Shown here: in pieces, positions 46,283 to 57,703 of the stretch
Layout: every line of letters starts with the position of its first letter
Position numbering within the stretch: the first letter of the stretch is position 1
Origin: Maritimibacter sp.
GTDB taxonomy: Bacteria > Pseudomonadota > Alphaproteobacteria > Rhodobacterales > Rhodobacteraceae
DNA length: 64,000 nt
Reading direction: 5' to 3'
NCBI GenBank assembly: GCA_011389895.1
Contig: JAABTN010000009.1
Span: 1 to 64,000, forward strand
The notes under the pieces: model-generated
Told to the model about the DNA's origin: nothing
The model's input: only the letters and a program-made list of their open reading frames with translations
The model's database searches: none
Translations under genes and position numbers: made by a program

Positions 46283-47044
46283 TCATAGGCCCCGGATCAC
46301 CTGCGTGTTCCACCCCTCGAACGCCTTTTCCAGATTGTCTGGCAACTGCGCATCTGTGAATACCGCGTCAAGGCGCTCGATCGACCCGATACGAGCGGGG
46401 GCGGTGCGGGTGAACTTGGTGTGGTCCGCGACAAGAAACGTGCGCCTTGAATGGCGTATGATGGCTTGGCTGACGCTGACTTCCTGAATGTCGAAATCCA
46501 GAAGATCGCCTTCTGAATCAACGGCGGAACAGCCGATCACGGCGATGTCGAACTTGAACTGTCGGATCGTTTCGGAGGCAAGCGGGCCGACCAGCCCGCC
46601 ATCGGCCCGGCGCAACTGGCCGCCCGTCACGATGATATCGCAGTCGGGGTTGGCGGCAAGAATGTTGGCGACGTTCATATTGTTGGTGACAACCATGAGC
46701 TTTTGGTGATGCAGCAACTCCTGTGCCACCGCTTCGGTTGTTGTGCCGATGTTCAGGAACAGCGATATCCCGTTCGGGATCTGCGCCGCACAGGCGCGCG
46801 CAATGGCGCGCTTGGCATCGGCGTTGAGAGCGCGGCGGTCTTCGTAGCCGATGTTGCTCGTGCCCGATGGAAGCACCGCGCCGCCATGCACACGATCCAG
46901 CCGACCGGCATCGGCAAGATCGGACAGGTCGCGCCGGATGGTTTGCAGGGTGACCCCGAAATGCTCGGCCAGCTTTTCTACGGTGACCTTGCCGTCCTTT
47001 CGAGCGATCTCGAGGATCTCGGGATGGCGGAAGGTTTGAGACAT
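46283..47044 (-). CDS. glpR: GlpR, DeoR-family repressor of glycerol genes
   Basis: 253 residues. The N-terminal DeoR helix-turn-helix is VEKLAEHFGVTLQTIRRDLS (residues 21-40); the C-terminal sugar-phosphate sensor has NIGTTTEAVAQELL and VVTNNMNVANIL. Glycerol-3-phosphate is the expected inducer. It is divergent from glpD across 282 bp that contain three similar repeats. The ATG at 47044 follows AAGGAGGCG. Confidence 0.9.
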   Translation of the reverse strand: MSQTFRHPEILEIARKDGKVTVEKLAEHFGVTLQTIRRDLSDLADAGRLDRVHGGAVLPSGTSNIGYEDRRALNADAKRAIARACAAQIPNGISLFLNIGTTTEAVAQELLHHQKLMVVTNNMNVANILAANPDCDIIVTGGQLRRADGGLVGPLASETIRQFKFDIAVIGCSAVDSEGDLLDFDIQEVSVSQAIIRHSRRTFLVADHTKFTRTAPARIGSIERLDAVFTDAQLPDNLEKAFEGWNTQVIRGL

Positions 47045-47195
47045 TTCGCCTCCTTCAGGCAAGTCCGCGGGGCGTTGGGTCACGATGCGCGGTTTTGTTC
47101 GAGATTCGCCGAAGCCGACGAAAATGACAACGGAAAACCCGCTGTGTCGTGCCCCGGAGCCGCCCCGGCAGGTCCGGACGGGCGCGTATGGACAG

Positions 47196-47211
47196 CGAAT
47201 ATCTTCGAAAA
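47196..47211. promoter_or_regulatory. Candidate GlpR site 1
   Basis: CGAATAT-CTT-CGAAAA, a 10-bp direct repeat of CGAA. The same layout recurs at 47242 and, less exactly, at 47269. Confidence 0.5.
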
Positions 47212-47241
47212 AGCATTGTTTTTACCTGATTTATCCAAAAA

Positions 47242-47257
47242 CGAATATAAACGAAAA
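47242..47257. promoter_or_regulatory. Candidate GlpR site 2
   Basis: CGAATAT-AAA-CGAAAA, identical to site 1 outside the three-base spacer and 46 bp from it. Confidence 0.55.
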
Positions 47258-47268
47258 TAAAATGCTTG

Positions 47269-47284
47269 CGAAAATATGCGTAAC
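47269..47284. promoter_or_regulatory. Candidate GlpR site 3 (degenerate)
   Basis: CGAAAAT-ATG-CGTAAC, same spacing, with changes in both units. It lies 27 bp downstream of site 2 and 43 bp before the glpD start. Confidence 0.4.
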
Positions 47285-47326
47285 AGCACAAAGTGCCCCT
47301 CGCAAACGCGCTTTGAGGAGGGACGC

Positions 47327-48922
47327 GTGGAGGATTCGCCAGACAACGCGGTCACAGACCTGTTCATTATCGGGGGTGGCATCAACGGCTGCGGTATCGC
47401 GCGGGATGCGGCGGGCCGGGGGCTGTCGGTGACGCTTGCAGAGATGAACGACCTCGCCTCGGCGACATCCTCGGCCTCGACCAAGTTGTTTCACGGCGGG
47501 CTGCGCTATCTCGAATATTTCGAATTCCGTTTGGTGCGCGAAGCGCTGATCGAACGCGAGACGCTGTTGCGCGCCATGCCGCACATCAGCTGGCCGATGC
47601 GTTTCGTCCTACCCTACCACGAGGGTATGAAGTTTGAATCGGACACGCCGACCTCGAAACTTCTGTCCATTTTCATGCCCTGGATGCGGGGTCGCCGCCC
47701 GGCGTGGCTGATCCGGATGGGGCTGTTTCTTTATGACAACCTTGGCGGGCGAAAGATCCTGCCCGGCACCACCACGCTCGACCTGTCCGGCACGCCCGAG
47801 GGTGCGCCGCTGCAAGACCGGTTTGGCAAGGCCTATGAGTATTCGGATTGCTGGGTCGAGGATTCGCGGCTCGTGGTGCTCAATGCCCGTGACGCAGGCG
47901 CGCGTGGCGCAGTGATCCGGACCCGCACCGAAGTGCTGAGCGCGACCCGCGTAGATGATTTGTGGCAGATCGAGACGCGCAACACCGACACGGGCGAGAT
48001 CGAAACCCAGAGCGCCCGGATGCTGGTCAATGCGGCGGGGCCATGGGTGGGCGATGTCATCCAGAACACCGTGCGGCTGAATTCGCGCGAAGGCGTGCGG
48101 TTGGTGCGCGGTAGCCATATCGTGACGCGCCGGCTTTATGACCACGACAAGTGCTATTTCTTTCAGGGCATCGACGGTCGGATCATCTTCGCCATTCCTT
48201 ACGAGCGCGATTTCACCCTGATCGGCACCACCGACGCCGAACATGGCGATCCGTCGCAGACGCCCCAGTGCACCCCGGATGAATGTCGCTACCTTCTGGA
48301 TTTCGCGAACCATTATTTCAAAGCGCAACTGTCCGAAGACGACGTTGTCTGGACCTATTCGGGGGTTCGCCCGCTTCACGATGATGGGGCCAGCAGTGCC
48401 ACGGCGGCAACGCGCGATTACACGCTGAAGGTCGATACCACGCAGGGCGCGCCCTTGCTCAACATCTTCGGCGGCAAGATCACCACCTATCGCCGGTTGG
48501 CCGAAAGCGCGCTTGAAAAGATCGGGCTGCACCTGCCGGTCGCCAAGGGGCCTTGGACGGCGGGCGTGCCGCTTCCGGGCGGTGATTTTCCCGTCGATGG
48601 GGTGGATGAGCTGATTGCCGGGCTGCGCCGGGATTACGCGTTCCTGACGCCGGATTGGGCGCTGCGGCTGGTGCGCGCCTACGGCACCGAGGCCCGCGTC
48701 ATAATGGGGTCGGCCAAGTCCATCTCCGATCTGGGCCGCGACTTCGGCGCGACCCTGAGCGAGGCCGAGGTCAGATGGCTGGTGGACCACGAATACGCGC
48801 GCACCGCCGAAGACGTGATCTGGCGGCGCAACAAGTTGGGTCTGCGGTTGCAAGACGCACAAATCAAGGCGCTGGACGGCTGGATGGCCCAAGCTGTCAA
48901 ACGCCCTGCGGTCGCAGAATGA
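47327..48922 (+). CDS. glpD: Aerobic glycerol-3-phosphate dehydrogenase, GTG start
   Basis: 531 residues. It oxidises glycerol-3-phosphate to DHAP and feeds electrons to quinone at the inner membrane. The FAD site is FIIGGGINGCGIARDAAGRG (residues 14-33), then SSASTKLFHGGLRYLE. The C-terminal domain is typical. The GTG at 47327 is chosen because GAGGAGGGACGC stands directly before it; an ATG at 47276 lies in the regulatory region. It is the first gene of the glycerol operon. Confidence 0.96.
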   Translation: MEDSPDNAVTDLFIIGGGINGCGIARDAAGRGLSVTLAEMNDLASATSSASTKLFHGGLRYLEYFEFRLVREALIERETLLRAMPHISWPMRFVLPYHEGMKFESDTPTSKLLSIFMPWMRGRRPAWLIRMGLFLYDNLGGRKILPGTTTLDLSGTPEGAPLQDRFGKAYEYSDCWVEDSRLVVLNARDAGARGAVIRTRTEVLSATRVDDLWQIETRNTDTGEIETQSARMLVNAAGPWVGDVIQNTVRLNSREGVRLVRGSHIVTRRLYDHDKCYFFQGIDGRIIFAIPYERDFTLIGTTDAEHGDPSQTPQCTPDECRYLLDFANHYFKAQLSEDDVVWTYSGVRPLHDDGASSATAATRDYTLKVDTTQGAPLLNIFGGKITTYRRLAESALEKIGLHLPVAKGPWTAGVPLPGGDFPVDGVDELIAGLRRDYAFLTPDWALRLVRAYGTEARVIMGSAKSISDLGRDFGATLSEAEVRWLVDHEYARTAEDVIWRRNKLGLRLQDAQIKALDGWMAQAVKRPAVAE

Positions 48923-48938: not shown

Positions 48939-50027
48939 ATGACTTTGGAACTGAAAGGCGTTTCCAAGAGCGTGGATGGGCAAACCCATATCCACCCCAC
49001 GGACATGACGCTGGAAAAAGGCACCATGAACGTGCTGCTTGGGCCGACGTCGTCGGGCAAGACGTCCCTCATGCGCCTGATGGCGGGATTGGATGTGCCC
49101 AACCAGGGCCAGGTCATCTGGCAGGGCACGGACGTGACGGGCATGCGGGTGCAGGACCGTAAGGTCGCGATGGTGTATCAGCAGTTCATCAACTACCCCT
49201 CGATGACCGTCTACGACAACATCGCCTCTCCCATGAAACTGCTCGGCCTCGACCGGGGTGACATCGACACGCGGGTGCGCGAAACCGCCGAGCTGATGCA
49301 GTTGACCCCGATGCTTGACCGAAAGCCGCTTGAGCTATCGGGGGGGCAGCAACAACGCTGCGCCTTGGCGCGCGCGCTGGTCAAGAACGCCGGGCTGGTG
49401 CTGCTGGATGAGCCTTTGGCGAACCTCGACTACAAGCTGCGCGAGGAATTGCGCGTCGAGATCCCGAAAATCTTCGAGGCCTCTGGGGCGATTTTCGTCT
49501 ATGCGACGACCGAACCGGAAGAGGCGCTCTTGCTCGGCGGCAAGGTCGCGACGCTTTGGGAAGGGCGCATCACGCAATTCGGGGCGACCCCTTCGGTCTA
49601 TCGCCAGCCGGTCGATGCCACGACCGCGCGGGTGTTCAGCGATCCGCCGATGAATTTCCTGCAAATCGCCAAGAAAGGCGACCGCATCGAGTTCGGCGAT
49701 GGCCAAAGCACGCAGGCGACCGGAGGGTTCGCAAAGCTGGCCGATGGCCGCTACACCGCCGGGTTTCGCCCCAACCACCTTGAAATCGGCCAACACGCCC
49801 CGGATGCCATGCAGTTTGCAACCAAGCTGACGGTGACCGAGCTGACCGGGTCGGAAACCTTCATCCACCTCGACCATTTCGGGGAACGCTGGGTCGGGCT
49901 GATCCACGGCGTTCATGAGCTGTCGCTGGGCGCGCGGCTCGATGTCTGGCTGGACCCGCGGCATGTCTACATTTTCGCACCGGACGGCACGCTGGTGGCA
50001 CCTGCTGCCTACGCGTTGGCGGCCTGA
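48939..50027 (+). CDS. glpS: Glycerol ABC transporter ATP-binding protein GlpS
   Basis: 362 residues, MalK-like with a C-terminal TOBE region. Walker A is GPTSSGKTS (35-43), the signature LSGGQ (133-137) is canonical and Walker B is LVLLDEP (153-159). The switch His is replaced by Thr191 (YATTEPEEAL instead of VTHD-type). Together with GlpT it should form one normal and one degenerate ATP site. The gene order glpD-S-T-P-Q-U-V matches the glycerol operon described in Rhizobium leguminosarum. Confidence 0.92.
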   Translation: MTLELKGVSKSVDGQTHIHPTDMTLEKGTMNVLLGPTSSGKTSLMRLMAGLDVPNQGQVIWQGTDVTGMRVQDRKVAMVYQQFINYPSMTVYDNIASPMKLLGLDRGDIDTRVRETAELMQLTPMLDRKPLELSGGQQQRCALARALVKNAGLVLLDEPLANLDYKLREELRVEIPKIFEASGAIFVYATTEPEEALLLGGKVATLWEGRITQFGATPSVYRQPVDATTARVFSDPPMNFLQIAKKGDRIEFGDGQSTQATGGFAKLADGRYTAGFRPNHLEIGQHAPDAMQFATKLTVTELTGSETFIHLDHFGERWVGLIHGVHELSLGARLDVWLDPRHVYIFAPDGTLVAPAAYALAA

Positions 50028-50037
50028 GGGGGGAACG

Positions 50038-51120
50038 ATGGCGAAGATAACACTTGATAACCTCGCGCATTCCTACCTGCCGAACCCGGCGGGCGAAGAG
50101 GATTTCGCGTTGAAAGAGCTCAACCACGACTGGGAGGATGGCGCGGCCTATGCGCTTCTGGGGGCGTCCGGGTGCGGCAAGTCCACCTTGCTCAATATCA
50201 TCTCGGGGTTGTTGCAACCCAGCCAGGGGCGCGTGCTGTTCGACGGGCTCGACGTGACCCATGCCCCCACGGCGGAACGCAACATCGCGCAGGTTTTCCA
50301 GTTCCCGGTGGTCTACGACACGATGACCGTGCGCGATAACCTGGCCTTTCCGCTGCGCAATCGTGGCCGGGATGAAACCTATGTGGCCGAGCGGGTACAG
50401 GAGATTGCCCGCATGATCGGCATGGAGGACGTGCTGGCCAAGAAGGCGCGCGGCCTGACGGCGGATGCCAAGCAGAAGATATCGCTGGGGCGCGGCATGG
50501 TGCGCAAGGACGTGAACGCCCTGTTGTTCGACGAACCGCTGACCGTGATCGACCCGCATATGAAGTGGGAGCTTCGCACGCAGCTCAAAAAGCTGCACCA
50601 CGACTTCGGGCACACGATGATCTACGTGACCCATGACCAGACCGAAGCGCTGACCTTTGCCGACAAGGTGGTCGTGATGTTCGACGGGCGCGTGGTGCAG
50701 ATCGGCACGCCGCAGGAATTGTTCGCGCGCCCCGATCATACCTTCGTTGGCTATTTCATCGGCTCGCCCGGCATGAATGTCATACCCGCGCAGATCGAAG
50801 GCAACACCGCCGTGATCCACGGGGCACAGATCGACCTTGGCAAGGGCTACAAGCCGCTCGAGGGCAAACAGGAAATCGGTATCCGCCCGGAATTCGCGCG
50901 CTTGTCGTCCGAGGCTGGCCTGCCGGTGCAGGTCCGCCGGGTCGAAGACGTGGGGCGCCACAAGATCATTCGCGCCGAGCTGTTCGGTCAAACCATCAAC
51001 ATCATGGCGGGCGAGGACGACCACGTCAGCGCCGACATGAACCACGTCACGTTCGATGCCGAACATATCAACGTCTACGCCAATGACTGGCGCGTCATTC
51101 CGGAAGGGGTTGCATCATGA
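50038..51120 (+). CDS. glpT: Glycerol ABC transporter ATP-binding protein GlpT
   Basis: 360 residues, partner of GlpS. Walker A GASGCGKST (42-50), Walker B LLFDEP (162-167) and switch His199 (YVTHDQTEAL) are intact. The signature motif is lost: the position reads LTADAKQK (140-147). The D-loop is also altered (LTVID). Not related to the G3P antiporter also named GlpT in E. coli. It overlaps glpP by ATGA. Confidence 0.92.
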   Translation: MAKITLDNLAHSYLPNPAGEEDFALKELNHDWEDGAAYALLGASGCGKSTLLNIISGLLQPSQGRVLFDGLDVTHAPTAERNIAQVFQFPVVYDTMTVRDNLAFPLRNRGRDETYVAERVQEIARMIGMEDVLAKKARGLTADAKQKISLGRGMVRKDVNALLFDEPLTVIDPHMKWELRTQLKKLHHDFGHTMIYVTHDQTEALTFADKVVVMFDGRVVQIGTPQELFARPDHTFVGYFIGSPGMNVIPAQIEGNTAVIHGAQIDLGKGYKPLEGKQEIGIRPEFARLSSEAGLPVQVRRVEDVGRHKIIRAELFGQTINIMAGEDDHVSADMNHVTFDAEHINVYANDWRVIPEGVAS

Positions 51121-51986
51121 ACAAGACTGTCAATCAAAAGGCTTGGTTTCTTGTGCTTCCGGTGCTTCTGCTGGTCGCGTTCTCGGCGGTCATCCCGCTG
51201 ATGACCGTGGTCAATTACTCGGTGCAGGACACGTTTGGTCAAAACGAGTTCTTCTGGTCCGGCCTGATCTGGTTCGAGGAAATGCTGGCTTCCGACCGGA
51301 TGTGGGACGCGCTGGGGCGTCAGCTGATGTTCTCGGGCATCATCCTCGCGATCCAGGTTCCCCTCGGTATCTTCGTCGCGCTGAACATGCCCAAAAGCGG
51401 CGTCTGGTCCTCGGTCTGCCTTGTGCTGATGTCGCTGCCTTTGCTGATCCCGTGGAACGTGGTGGGCACCATCTGGCAGGTTTTCGGGCGAACCGATATC
51501 GGCCTTCTTGGCTACACGCTGGACGCCCTCGGGATCAATTACAACTATACGCAAGACAGGCTTGCCGCTTGGGTGACGCTGATCGTCATGGACGTCTGGC
51601 ACTGGACATCCCTTGTGGCCTTGCTGGCTTTCGCCGGGCTCAAATCGATCCCCGACGCCTATTACCAGGCCGCCAAGATCGACCAGGCAAGCCGCTGGAA
51701 GGTGTTCCGCTACATCGAGCTTCCCAAGATGAGCGGCGTTCTGACCATCGCCATCCTGCTTCGTTTCATGGACAGCTTCAAGATCTACACCGAGCCGTTC
51801 GTCGTCACCGGCGGTGGCCCCGGCAACGCCACCACGCTGTTGTCGATCGACCTTGTGAAAATGGCGTTGGGACAGTTCGACCTTGGCCCGGCAGCCGCCT
51901 TCTCGATCATGTATTTCCTCGTGATCCTTCTCGTCTCCTGGGTGTTCTACACCGTGATGACCAACCTTGATAAAGAGGAGAGCTGA
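51117..51986 (+). CDS. glpP: Glycerol ABC transporter permease GlpP
   Basis: 289 residues, MalF/UgpA type with six membrane helices. The ATPase-docking EAA-like loop is IPDAYYQAAKIDQASRWKVF near residue 180. It forms the channel with GlpQ. The start overlaps the glpT stop by ATGA. The N-terminal helix is WFLVLPVLLLVAFSAVIPLM. Confidence 0.92.
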   Translation: MNKTVNQKAWFLVLPVLLLVAFSAVIPLMTVVNYSVQDTFGQNEFFWSGLIWFEEMLASDRMWDALGRQLMFSGIILAIQVPLGIFVALNMPKSGVWSSVCLVLMSLPLLIPWNVVGTIWQVFGRTDIGLLGYTLDALGINYNYTQDRLAAWVTLIVMDVWHWTSLVALLAFAGLKSIPDAYYQAAKIDQASRWKVFRYIELPKMSGVLTIAILLRFMDSFKIYTEPFVVTGGGPGNATTLLSIDLVKMALGQFDLGPAAAFSIMYFLVILLVSWVFYTVMTNLDKEES

Positions 51987-51989
51987 GCC

Positions 51990-52841
51990 ATGGCCGACAT
52001 GACCGTCAACAAGGCCTCCAGCCGCCCACGCGGCCTGCCCCGGATCAACAGCCGCCTCGTGGTGATGACCCTCTATCTCGTCTTCCTGTTGCTGCCGATC
52101 TACTGGCTGCTCAACATGAGCTTCAAGACGAACTCGGAGATCGTGAGCACCTTCTCGCTGTGGCCCCGTGATCTGACCATCGCGAATTATATCACGATCC
52201 TGACCGACCCGGCGTGGTATACGGGCTATATCAACTCGATCATCTATGTGTCGCTGAACACGGTGATCTCGCTCGCGGTTGCCCTGCCGGCGGCCTATGC
52301 GTTCTCGCGCTACAACTTCATGGGCGACAAGCACCTGTTCTTCTGGCTCCTGACCAACCGCATGGCACCGCCCGCGGTCTTTGCCCTGCCGTTTTTCCAA
52401 CTCTACAGCTCGGTGGGTCTGTTCGACACGCATATCGCGGTCGCCTTGGCGCACACGCTGTTCAACGTGCCCCTTGCGGTGTGGATTCTCGAAGGCTTCA
52501 TGCGCGGCGTGCCCAAGGAGATCGACGAGACGGCCTATATCGATGGCTACGGGTTCGGGAAGTTCTTCGTGAAGATCTTCATGCCGCTGATCGCGAGCGG
52601 GATCGGGGTCGCGGCTTTCTTCTGCTTCATGTTTTCTTGGGTGGAGCTTCTGCTTTCGCGCACCCTGACAAGCGTCGATGCGAAACCCATCGCCGCCACG
52701 ATGACCCGCACCGTGGGCGCCTCGGGTGTCGACTGGGGCGTGTTGGCCGCCGCCGGTGTTCTGACGATCCTGCCTGGGGCCCTCGTGATCTACTTCGTGC
52801 GCAATTTCATCGCCAAGGGCTTTGCCCTGGGCCGCGTTTAA
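51990..52841 (+). CDS. glpQ: Glycerol ABC transporter permease GlpQ
   Basis: 283 residues, MalG type. The EAA-like loop is VPKEIDETAYIDGYGFGKFF near residue 171, and it has six membrane helices. It pairs with GlpP and lies 3 nt after it. Name follows the Rhizobium glycerol transporter and is unrelated to the E. coli phosphodiesterase GlpQ. Confidence 0.92.
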   Translation: MADMTVNKASSRPRGLPRINSRLVVMTLYLVFLLLPIYWLLNMSFKTNSEIVSTFSLWPRDLTIANYITILTDPAWYTGYINSIIYVSLNTVISLAVALPAAYAFSRYNFMGDKHLFFWLLTNRMAPPAVFALPFFQLYSSVGLFDTHIAVALAHTLFNVPLAVWILEGFMRGVPKEIDETAYIDGYGFGKFFVKIFMPLIASGIGVAAFFCFMFSWVELLLSRTLTSVDAKPIAATMTRTVGASGVDWGVLAAAGVLTILPGALVIYFVRNFIAKGFALGRV

Positions 52842-52854
52842 AGGAGGACAAAAC

Positions 52855-53127
52855 ATGGCATGGATGGCATGGACCTGGCCGACGGCGATCTTCTTCATGG
52901 TCATCGCCGGTCTGTTGATCACCTTCTCGGTGCTCGCGATCAAGTTTCCGGAAACCCCGCGTCGCGGCATTCTGCGGATCGAAACGACGCGCGGCGACCG
53001 GCTTTTCATCACCCTCTTGGGCTCGGCCTTCATCAATCTGGCCTGGCTCGGAGTTGTGGGGGCACAACAACCCTTTGCCCTCATCGTCTGCCTGATCTAC
53101 GCGCTCGCGGTTTTCCGCTGGGTCTAG
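52855..53127 (+). CDS. glpU: DUF2160 small membrane protein GlpU
   Basis: 90 residues with three hydrophobic helices (IFFMVIAGLLITFSVLAI, ITLLGSAFINLAWLGVV, ALIVCLIYALAVF). DUF2160 proteins occur only with this transporter type and are thought to be an accessory membrane subunit. AAGGAGG precedes the ATG at 52855; the longer frame overlaps glpQ. Confidence 0.9.
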   Translation: MAWMAWTWPTAIFFMVIAGLLITFSVLAIKFPETPRRGILRIETTRGDRLFITLLGSAFINLAWLGVVGAQQPFALIVCLIYALAVFRWV

Positions 53128-53209
53128 ACGCGCACTGACGAAGCCGGAAAGGAGGGGGCCGGCCATGTCTCGAATTCCCCTCGCAAAACGGTCCAAGGGA
53201 GGACACCAA

Positions 53210-54913
53210 ATGAATATGAAGTTCAAACTGACCACCGCGACGGCGGCGCTTATGGCGCTGTCCGGGCAAGCGATGGCCGACATGGAGGCCGCGCGCGGCT
53301 TTCTGGACGAAAACATCGACCGCTCGGCGCTGAGCCGCGAGGCCCAGGAAGCCGAGATGCAGTGGTTCGTCGACGCCGCCGAACCCTATCAGGGTATGGA
53401 GATCAACGTCGTCTCGGAAACCATCGCGACGCATGAATACGAAAGCCAGGTCCTGGCACCCGCGTTCACGGCGATCACCGGGATCGAGGTCACGCATGAC
53501 CTTATCGGCGAGGGCGATGTGGTCGAGCGTCTGCAGACACAAATGCAGACCGGCGAGAACGTCTATGACATGTATGTCAACGACGCCGACCTGATCGGCA
53601 CGCACTGGCGTTACCAGCAGGTCCGCAACCTGACAGACTGGATCGCGGGTGAGGGCGCCGACGTCACCAACCCGGAGCTGGACCTTGAGGATTTCATCGG
53701 CACCGCTTCGGCAACCGGACCTGACGGCAAGCTCTACCAGCTTCCCGTGCAGCAGTTTGCCAATGTCTACTGGTTCCGCCACGACTGGTTCACCGATCCC
53801 GAGATCATGGCCGATTTCGAAGAGGAATACGGATACGAACTTGGCGTTCCGGTCAACTGGTCGGCCTACGAGGATATCGCCGCGTTCTTCACGGGTCGCG
53901 AGATCGACGGGCAGGAAGTCTATGGCAACATGGACTACGGTCGCAAACACCCCAGCCTCGGCTGGCGCTTCACCGATGCGTGGATGTCAATGGCCGGGAT
54001 GGGCGACAAGGGTCTGCCGAACGGCGTCCCGGTTGACGAATGGGGCATCCGCGTCAACGAAAACTCCCAACCCGTCGGTTCGTGCATGGCCCGCGGCGGG
54101 GCCACAAACAGCCCCGCAGCAGTCTATGCCATCGACAAGTACAAGAACTGGCTGGAAAACTACGCACCGCCGGAAGCCTCCGGCATGACTTTCTCCGAAG
54201 CCGGTCCGGTGCCGGGCCAAGGGGCCATCGCGCAGCAGATGTTCCTTTATACCACCTTCGTGGCCTCTCTGGTCGACGAAGACCTGCCGGTGATGAACGA
54301 GGACGGAACGCCGAAATGGCGCCTCGCGCCCAGCCCGCATGGTGCCTACTGGGAAGAGGGCATGAAGGTCGGCTACCAGGATGTGGGGTCTGCCACGCTG
54401 ATGAAGTCCACGCCCGTGGACCGCGCACAGGCGGCTTGGCTTTACGCGCAGTTCATTGCCTCCAAGACGGTGGACGTGGAGAAGTCGCACTACGGTCTGA
54501 CCTTTATCCGCGAAAGCACCATCGATCATGAAAGCTTCACCGAACGCGCGCCGCGCCTCGGTGGCCTGGTCGAGTTCTACCGGTCGCCAGAGCGCGAAAA
54601 CTGGACCGATACCGGGTTCAACGTGCCCGACTATCCGCGTCTCGCACAGCTGTGGTGGCAGAACATCGGTGACGCCTCCTCCGGTGCCAAGACGGCCAAG
54701 GAAGCCCTCGACGCGCTTTGTGCGGAGCAGGAGCGCGTGATGGAACGGCTTGAGCGCTCCGGCGTTCAGGGCGATATCGGCCCGCTTCTCAACGATGAGC
54801 GGGATCCGCAGGAATGGCTCGCCGAGCCGGGTGCGCCGAAGCCCGCCCTCGACAATGAAGACCCAGAGCCGGTCACGATCGCCTATGAAGAGCTGATCAA
54901 GTCCTGGCAGTAA
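53210..54913 (+). CDS. glpV: Glycerol ABC transporter binding protein GlpV
   Basis: 567 residues, far longer than a usual sugar receptor, as in the family. The signal peptide [20 protein letters not shown] is cleaved near AMA. The mature part contains [20 protein letters not shown] and a C-terminal acidic region. It binds glycerol in the periplasm. AAGGGAGG lies 6-7 nt before the ATG at 53210. A hairpin separates it from glpK. Confidence 0.93.
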
Positions 54914-55022: not shown

Positions 55023-56510
55023 ATGAGACATGTTCTGGCGATTGACCAAGGCACCACATCGAGCCGCGCGATCCTGTTCGATGACGCCATGCATATCGCG
55101 TCCACCGCGCAAGAGGAATTCACCCAGCATTTCCCCGAAAGCGGCTGGGTCGAACATGACCCCGAGGAGATATGGGCCACGACCGCGGGCACCTGTCGCG
55201 CCGCGATTGAGAAGGCCGGGTTGTCCCCGGCGGATATCGCGGCGGTGGGCATAACCAACCAGCGCGAGACCACGATTGTCTGGGACAGGGCCACGGGAAA
55301 GCCCGTATACCGTGCCATTGTCTGGCAAGACCGAAGAACCGCCCCGTTCTGTGCCGAGCTGCGCGCGGGCGGACATGACAAGACCATCACCGCCAAGACC
55401 GGGTTGCTGGCCGACCCCTATTTCTCAGGAACCAAGCTCAAATGGATCCTCGATCATGTCGATGGCGCGCGCGACCGCGCCCGCAAGGGTGAGCTTTTGT
55501 TCGGCACGGTCGACAGCTGGCTGATCTGGAAGCTGACGGGGGGTGCCGCGCATGTCACCGATGCCACCAATGCGGCGCGCACCATGCTATACGATATTCA
55601 CAAGGGCTGCTGGTCGCGCACGATCTGCGACCTTTTCGACATCCCGATGGCGATGCTACCAGAGGTGACCGATTGTGCCGCCGATTTCGGCATGACGCGG
55701 CCCGACCTGTTCGGAAAATCTCTCCCGATCCTCGGGGTTGCGGGCGATCAACAGGCGGCCACGGTCGGGCAGGCCTGTTTTGAACCGGGGATGATGAAAT
55801 CCACCTATGGCACCGGGTGCTTTGCGCTTCTGAACACCGGGGCCACCCCGGTCGCCTCGCAAAACCACCTGCTGACCACGATTGCCTATCAGCTTGATGG
55901 GAAGCCGACCTATGCGCTGGAAGGGTCGATCTTTGTCGCCGGGGCGGTCGTGCAATGGCTTCGCGACGGGTTGAAGATCATTCGCGAGGCGTCGGAAACC
56001 CAACCTTTGGCCAGACAGGCTGACACCACGCAGGATGTCGTGCTCGTGCCCGCGTTTGTCGGCTTGGGCGCCCCCTATTGGAACGCCGAATGCCGGGGGG
56101 CGATCTTTGGGCTGACCCGTGCCACCGGCCCCGAAGAAATCGCGCGTGCCGCTCTGGAAAGCGTCGGCTACCAGACCCGCGATCTGCTTGAGGCGATGCA
56201 GGCCGACTGGCAGGCCGAGGGCACCCAGCCCACCTTGCGCGTGGATGGCGGCATGACGGCGAGCGATTGGGCCATGCAGTTTCTCTCGGACGTCATCAAT
56301 GCGCCGGTTGATCGGCCCGATGTTCTTGAGACCACCGCACTTGGCGCCGCCTGGCTCGCCGGTCAGCGGGCCGGGGTCTATCCCGACATGGATGCGTTTG
56401 CCGATGGATGGCGCATTGACCGGACCTTTTCCCCGGCGATGTCGTCGGACACCCGGGACCGGAAATATGGCGCGTGGAAGCGCGCTGTCGATGCCACGAT
56501 GCGGTTCTGA
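55023..56510 (+). CDS. glpK: Glycerol kinase
   Basis: 495 residues, FGGY family. It phosphorylates imported glycerol. Motifs are [16 protein letters not shown] at the start, [11 protein letters not shown], the conserved [15 protein letters not shown] and the C-terminal [27 protein letters not shown] precedes the ATG. Behind the transporter and glpD it completes glycerol to DHAP. Confidence 0.97.
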
Positions 56511-56554
56511 ACCATGATCGGTCCCCCGACCTACTTCGGCCCGGCAGAAACGGC

Positions 56555-57703
56555 ATGATGGGTTTCACCCTCACCGCGCCCGCCCGCACGCTCTTTGGTG
56601 AAGGCTGCCGCGCAGGGGCGGTGGCCGAGATTTCAGACCTCGCACCCGGCGTGCTCCTAATCAGGGGGCGCTCGGTGGCTTGGGTCGACGATCTGGAACA
56701 TGACCTGCGCGCTGCCGGGTGCACGGTGGAGACCGTTTTTTCCGCCGGAGAGCCGGATATTGAGACGGTGCGCGCCGGGGTGCGCGCAGCACGGGCGCGG
56801 GACGTTGGGTGCGTGGTCGCCGTGGGCGGGGGTGCAACCATTGATCTGGGCAAGGCGATTTCCGGGTTGGCCCCCAGCGACGGCGATGTCATGGACCACC
56901 TCGGTCTTGGCGCTGCGCGGGCCGGCCCAATGTCGACACCCCTGCCATTCGTCGCCATCCCGACCACAGCGGGGACGGGCGCGGAAGCCACGCGAAATGC
57001 CGTGATCGGCGTGCCTGACCGGCAGCTAAAGATCAGCCTGCGTGACCCGCGCCTTGTCGCGCGCCTTGCCATTGTGGACCCAGAGCTGACCCATGACGCC
57101 CCGCGTTCCGTGACCTTGGCCACAGGGCTCGATGCGATCACCCAATTGATCGAAAGCTACCTGTCTTGTCGCGCAAACCCGGTGACCGATGCGCTGTGTC
57201 AGGCCACGCTTCCCTCGGCGATTGCCGCGCTGGCCCGGGTGATGGAGGCCGAAGATCCCGATGCGCGGGCCTGTCTTTCGAAAGCCAGCTACCTTAGCGG
57301 TCTGGCGCTGGCCAATGCCGGTCTCGGGGTGGTTCATGGCCTCGCCTCCGTGATCGGCGCGCGTGGCGGGGCGCATGGCGCGATTTGCGGACGTCTGCTC
57401 GCCGGTGCCCTTGTGGTGAACCGGGCGGCGATGGGGGCGCAGGACCGGGGCAGGGCGCGGATCGACGAGATCAATGGCCTATTGCTGAGCACGCTCGACC
57501 GCGGCGGTAGCAGCCAGGATGGGCCAAGGGCGCTGACCCGCTTTGTCGACCACCACGGTCTTCCGACCCTGTCCGATTTCGGCGTGCCCGAGGACGACGA
57601 CATGCAGGTCGCGACCGCCGCTGCCACCGCGTCCTCGACGCAAGCGAACCCGGTTGCCTTGGACGTAGAAGAGATCCGCAGCATCCTGCGACAGACGCGC
57701 TGA
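56555..57703 (+). CDS. Iron-type (group III) alcohol dehydrogenase family protein
   Basis: 382 residues. NAD binding is VVAVGGGATIDLGKA near residue 88 and the PTTAGTGAEAT motif near 136. Metal ligands Asp193, His261 and His274 are present, but the fourth ligand position is Gln197 (GLDAITQLIE) where FucO-type enzymes have His. Substrate unknown: glycerol, glyceraldehyde or another short alcohol would fit the operon. It starts 44 nt after glpK, with a second ATG at 56558. Confidence 0.85.
   Translation: MMGFTLTAPARTLFGEGCRAGAVAEISDLAPGVLLIRGRSVAWVDDLEHDLRAAGCTVETVFSAGEPDIETVRAGVRAARARDVGCVVAVGGGATIDLGKAISGLAPSDGDVMDHLGLGAARAGPMSTPLPFVAIPTTAGTGAEATRNAVIGVPDRQLKISLRDPRLVARLAIVDPELTHDAPRSVTLATGLDAITQLIESYLSCRANPVTDALCQATLPSAIAALARVMEAEDPDARACLSKASYLSGLALANAGLGVVHGLASVIGARGGAHGAICGRLLAGALVVNRAAMGAQDRGRARIDEINGLLLSTLDRGGSSQDGPRALTRFVDHHGLPTLSDFGVPEDDDMQVATAAATASSTQANPVALDVEEIRSILRQTR

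Follow-up and report, generated by a model that had tools for sequence, protein, structure and literature searches.

The glp locus

Three short stretches built around CGAA lie between a gene for a DeoR-family regulator, glpR, and the divergent glpD in a Maritimibacter sp. (contig JAABTN010000009.1; the window is the whole stretch of 64,000 nucleotides that was analysed). A sequence-only reading of this DNA had taken all three for good GlpR sites, which raises the question of which of them, if any, is read by a regulator, by which regulator, and with what effect on glpD. The letters are as that reading gave them, with two exact units at 47196 and 47242 and a third stretch at 47269, and the 10-bp period inside one unit is correct. 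The two full copies are 46 bp apart, about 4.4 helical turns.

The features of the locus are collected in Table 1. Both domains expected of a GlpR are found in the glpR product (HTH_DeoR at 4.7e-18, DeoRC at 1.4e-53), and its top NCBIfam model is NF008154 (DeoR/GlpR) with 270.7 bits, short of the curated cut-off of 331. The one match among solved structures covers the sensor-domain part of the deoxyribose operon repressor (7l6l) and no DNA-binding part. We favour a glpR start at 47044, since tblastn matches of relatives mostly begin around residue 14 of the longer ORF; for glpD, the start region in relatives favours the GTG at 47327, preceded by GAGGAGG, over the ORF start at 47276. With these starts the intergenic region is 47045-47326. 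The transporter set downstream comprises two ATPases, two permeases, a DUF2160 protein and a solute-binding protein, and its glpSTPQUV-like names are given by analogy (PMC7912956). An iron-containing alcohol dehydrogenase gene (56474-57703; Pfam Fe-ADH 5.6e-38) overlaps the end of glpK and may be on the same transcript.

Table 1. Features of the glpR-glpD locus, in window coordinates
Feature	Coordinates	Strand	Basis
glpR, DeoR-family regulator	46283..47044	-	HTH_DeoR and DeoRC domains
First unit, CGAATATCTTCGAAAA	47196..47211	+	borderline near-copy, unconserved
Middle unit, CGAATATAAACGAAAA, conserved direct-repeat operator (predicted)	47242..47257	+	two CGAA half-sites, 10-bp period
Predicted -35 box of glpD, TTGCGA	47266..47271	+	TTG[AC] position in relatives
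Predicted -10 box, CAAAGT	47289..47294	+	17-bp spacer after -35; analogy with relatives
glpD, glycerol-3-phosphate dehydrogenase	47327..48922	+	NF008899, 758.3 bits, cut-off 360
ABC transporter genes (glpSTPQUV-like), co-directional with glpD	48939..54913	+	NCBIfam and Pfam matches
glpK, glycerol kinase	55023..56510	+	TIGR01311, 698 bits, cut-off 590.35

Conservation of one repeat unit

We collected 110 loci, including the window and some duplicated genomes. A divergent glpR adjoins glpD in 93 of them, and 88 of these regions were left after removal of near-duplicates; counts out of 93 keep the duplicates. Across the 88 glpR-glpD regions, CGAA-N6-CGAA (a spacing of 10) occurs 59 times, against a mean of 2.0 and a maximum of 8 in 200 shuffles, and 57 times against 1.8 when the window is set aside. 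At least one such pair is present in 55 of the 88 regions, and no other CGAA spacing from 4 to 40 occurs more than 12 times. A motif search upstream of glpD in Rhodobacterales, which the sequence-only reading had proposed as its check, thus came out, in this family, in favour of a conserved direct repeat.

Starting with 54 seed sites, we extended a matrix until it covered 77 of the 87 non-window regions, iterating on the same regions that were later scored, the window excepted. The held-out core of this matrix places 47242 first among 127,960 window positions with 28.8 bits, the next position reaching 9.8, and gives 3.5 bits (rank 11) to the unit at 47196 and 4.1 bits (rank 9) to that at 47269. 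Only the middle unit of the three is the conserved element, and the idea of three equivalent sites is ruled out by these scores, from a matrix built without the window. In the relatives the half-site is AAACGAA(C/A)A, present twice, with the CG kept in 95-96% of sequences in the second half-site and in 79-94% in the first. The base after CGAA is C in 58% and A in 34% of first half-sites, and A in 58% and C in 32% of second ones; the window's own half-sites read CGAATA and CGAAAA, and with its A-rich flanks the operator spans about 47238-47261. A plus-strand site of at least 12 bits is present in 77 of the 93 divergent regions, most of these being training sequences of the matrix, and is absent from the other 16.

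The first unit is identical to the middle unit at 13 of 16 positions. It is a borderline case, since a match as good is reached by 18 of 3,000 dinucleotide shuffles of the flanks, and 13 or more of 16 by 12 of 3,000 local shuffles. Allowing up to two mismatches, CGAATATNNNCGAAAA matches only the units at 47196 and 47242 in the window, where 1.20 matches are expected by chance; a looser pattern, CGAAWWNNNNCGAAAA, is found at four places genome-wide, two of them at this locus, and its reversed control at two. The unit at 47196 retains CGAA without the preceding A runs of the half-site, and the relatives inspected showed no counterpart at this position. A best second match of at least 13 occurs in 8 of 78 regions, the window included, with six of the eight on the minus strand, facing glpR. 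The 47196 unit is possibly a lineage-specific weak auxiliary site. Of the claim of three good GlpR sites, then, the middle unit stands as a conserved one, but the first is a poor and unconserved match, and the third belongs to the predicted promoter.

Position at the predicted glpD promoter

The third unit, CGAAAATATGCG at 47269, had been described as a degenerate copy of the repeat. Its core score is not that of a motif copy, and it coincides with a predicted -35 box, an assignment that we make because TTGCGA stands at the conserved 22-24 bp place and is followed after 17 bp by CAAAGT; relatives often have CATAAA at the -10 place. Of 77 relatives, 54 have TTG[AC] at a distance of 22-24 bp from where the operator starts and 57 at 16-34 bp, and 20 have none near the site; for comparison, 158 of 1,076 18-base windows upstream of the site contain it. 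The matrix includes the first T of the -35 box at +24, so the distance of 22-24 bp is somewhat favoured. A simple consensus promoter scan did not report the predicted glpD promoter; the sole pair that it returned is a promoter-like TTCGCA-17-TATATT on the minus strand at 47244-47272, running through the operator. If this pair is real, a glpR promoter would lie under the same site.

We suggest, with a probability of about 0.78, that 47242-47257 is a GlpR operator at the glpD promoter that represses until glycerol-3-phosphate releases the regulator. Its two AAACGAA(C/A)A half-sites are arranged head to tail, 10 bp apart, and because of this period two DNA-binding domains of one GlpR oligomer would contact a single helical face. 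As the operator ends just before the -35 box, GlpR bound there would obstruct RNA polymerase, through sigma region 4 or the alpha C-terminal domains. The gene glpD would be off until glycerol-3-phosphate releases GlpR, and so, probably, would the co-directional transporter and kinase genes, if glpD, the ABC transporter genes and glpK are transcribed together.

The operator is upstream of the -35 box and not over it, which is a point against repression and would also suit an activator. It is conceivable, and in our judgement quite unlikely, that GlpR binds the element and activates glpD from just upstream of the -35 box by touching RNA polymerase. The operator is centred some 51 bp ahead of the inferred start and keeps a near-constant 22-24 bp from the -35 box, and sites upstream of promoter elements have been read as activator sites for AraC-type regulators (PMC8579813). 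Activation would also agree with the 20 relatives that have no TTG[AC] there, and the DeoR-family models that match the glpR product include one for an L-fucose operon activator. However, -35 boxes of the TTGAC type adjoin the operator in several relatives, as expected of a promoter that needs repression, the distance from operator to -35 box varies by 2 bp, and the GlpR proteins studied elsewhere repress (PMC9765544; PMC7912956).

Co-occurrence with GlpR

Loci in which glpR is not the divergent neighbour of glpD bear on which protein reads the element. There are 17 of these, and one (L051), with only 51 upstream bases, was left out; in the remaining 16 genomes we looked for GlpR with an E-value limit of 1e-20. 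Nine of the 16 keep the element, and all nine have a GlpR of 58-80% identity elsewhere in the genome; eight of the nine are independent, since L010 and L053 are one genome. Five (L010, L012, L035, L053, L064) have a literal CGAA-N6-CGAA 95-117 bases before the anchor, and four (L007, L022, L050, L089) score 19.4-24.6 with the matrix and have a degenerate first half-site. The element is absent from four loci, two of which (L034, in genome G045, and L061, which look closely related) have a best GlpR match of 36%, and two of which (L069, L098) have none at E 1e-20. The mixed cases are L102 (7.4 bits, GlpR of 64%), L107 (8.3 bits, GlpR of 51%) and L072 (14.4 bits, minus strand), which lies at the edge of a contig and whose genome has no more than a 36% paralogue. 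The element thus tracks the presence of a GlpR orthologue. Together with conservation, this tracking supports the earlier placing of a probable GlpR site between glpR and glpD, as far as can be judged from sequence.

A side observation concerns separated genes. At the Salipiger loci (L010, L053, L064) the element stays at glpD and glpR is not adjacent; in genome G088 the GlpR gene is on a different contig, next to a second copy of glpD, and has sites to either side.

Could another DeoR-family paralogue, and not GlpR, read the element? Direct repeats of the CGAA type also serve other members of the DeoR family (RhaR; PMC3870299), and some genomes have paralogues of 27-36% identity. However, the two genomes with a 36% paralogue only (G045/L034 and L061) do not have the element, and in 93 of the 110 loci it is glpR that stands divergently next to glpD, which makes a different reader very unlikely. 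We give even less credence to the A-rich block aiding RNA polymerase as an UP element or phased A-tract bend, with no regulator site. The block is 82% A+T, and its A runs recur with a 10-bp phase immediately before the -35 box, as such a structure would have them, but the CG of both half-sites is kept at the frequencies given above, mirror copies face glpR, and loss of the element accompanies loss of the GlpR orthologue.

Sites facing glpR

Of the 93 divergent regions, 40 have a minus-strand site of at least 12 bits, which in 33 cases lies no more than 60 bases from the glpR start, and 12 bits is reached on either strand in 8 of 465 shuffled regions. The TTCG pair, which faces the other way, has 22 occurrences at spacing 10, where shuffled sequence gives 1.5, and these are spread over 21 of the 88 regions. 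In the window the best minus-strand score near glpR is 5.4 bits, at 47101, and the glpR of this genome therefore has no glpR-proximal mirror site. In Phaeobacter sp. MED193 the GlpR protein is up on phosphatidylethanolamine (PMC10132767), a rise that fits autoregulation and does not show it.

Distribution in the genome, genus, family and class

A model, R1, was built from the glpD loci of 48 relatives. In the Maritimibacter genome it finds the operator at E 0.018; a wider regulon was sought there, and extending the search to E 10 added a single hit, at 2.83, which is in a coding region. Of 120 family genomes, 110 have GlpD and only 55 have an R1 match with E no higher than 1. Twenty matches are at E up to 0.1, 17 of them within 300 bases upstream of glpD, a location that is partly by construction, since R1 was trained on glpD loci; the other three, away from glpD, are in genomes G047, G077 and G034.

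Of the seven further genomes of the genus, two (L115, L116) have a GlpD of 77-78% identity together with the element. The other five (L117-L121) have only a GlpD of 59-61%, with no site above 1.7 bits and no GlpR within the GlpD locus. Across the class, GlpD was matched in 46 of 142 genomes. Among 29 new loci the top score is at least 12 in five (L125, L126, L137, L140, L143), with four of the five sites minus-strand, and L125 is probably the same record as L113. GlpR was seen in 9 of the 29; where a co-directional glpR is just upstream of glpD, the scores cover the glpD-proximal region only. Outside the family, the direct pair TTTCGTTTGGTTTCG, with its 10-bp period, is present at L137 and L140, and GlpR there is co-directional and 51-52% identical. 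The rest of the 29 mostly have no site near glpD.

Several of these results count against a GlpR operator: the regulator is under the NF008154 cut-off, 16 of 93 regions have no plus-strand site of 12 bits, L102, L107 and L072 do not conform, R1 matches in 55 of 120 genomes, TTG[AC] is missing in 20 of 77 relatives, and the window has no mirror site.

Comparison with known systems

The RegPrecise collection may hold a Rhodobacterales GlpR motif. A literature search, mostly at title level, turned up no publication that we recognised as describing one. In E. coli (NC_000913) the GlpR operator region at glpD carries ATATGTTCGATAACGAACATTT, with the same half-site, CGAACAT, before glpD. The E. coli arrangement is an inverted TTCG-N4-CGAA, whereas the Rhodobacteraceae element is a direct CGAA-N6-CGAA. 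The inverted form occurs twice in the 88 regions, against 1.6 in shuffled sequence, so that the direct layout proposed at the outset does differ from the E. coli one, and the C and A frequencies after CGAA in relatives agree with a half-site of the E. coli type, CGAACA(T). The recognition helices of E. coli GlpR and of the glpR product described here have QTIRRDL in common, and 24 of 48 N-terminal residues are identical. E. coli and the Rhodobacteraceae thus offer a clean pair, with one DeoR-family half-site in inverted and in direct order. With near-identical recognition helices and the same half-site, the geometry could have been changed by how the subunits join and not by base recognition, and GlpR might also activate glpD from its place upstream of the -35 box, a combined proposal that we consider unlikely.

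The direct-repeat layout is already known in the DeoR family, and the glpD element is a further case, since two imperfect direct repeats with a 10-11 bp period have been published for the operators of RhaR, a repressor with a sugar effector, one such regulator having been tested by gel shift (PMC3870299). The likeness extends to head-to-tail half-sites, to a TCGAAA-type unit in Chloroflexus, and to conservation of a spacing-10 direct pair beside a DeoR-family gene and its targets. RhaR differs in belonging to another regulator group with other targets, and Chloroflexus has a tandem of four units (PMC3870299).

Glp loci of related content are known from Rhizobium leguminosarum and Cupriavidus metallidurans, where glpR is beside a glpSTPQUV-type ABC transporter, glpD and glpK in an order that differs from the one here, and GlpR is a repressor in Cupriavidus (PMC7912956). 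Pseudomonas aeruginosa GlpR represses glpD, binds the glpD and glpFK promoters and has glycerol-3-phosphate as effector; there glycerol enters by the GlpF facilitator, and here an ABC transporter is present instead (PMC9765544). The parts of PMC7912956 and PMC9765544 drawn on here give no operator motif or sequence. The element is a candidate GlpR operator in a family that is large and mostly marine and imports glycerol through an ABC transporter.

Other features near glpD

The genome has a second GlpD paralogue (contig C23 of G000, 1072-2553; L168), 57% identical over 403 residues, with no site above 2.0 bits within 5 kb. An Rfam search of 46900-47500 gave no match. At 47306-47330 the Shine-Dalgarno sequence of glpD lies between the arms ACGCG and CGCGT, and the 3´ arm contains the GTG start. 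A 5-bp stem around a Shine-Dalgarno-like loop at the glpD start is present in 22 of 88 relatives, compared with 3-13 in 20 mononucleotide shuffles, and the ACGCG and CGCGT arms recur unchanged in a subset of relatives.
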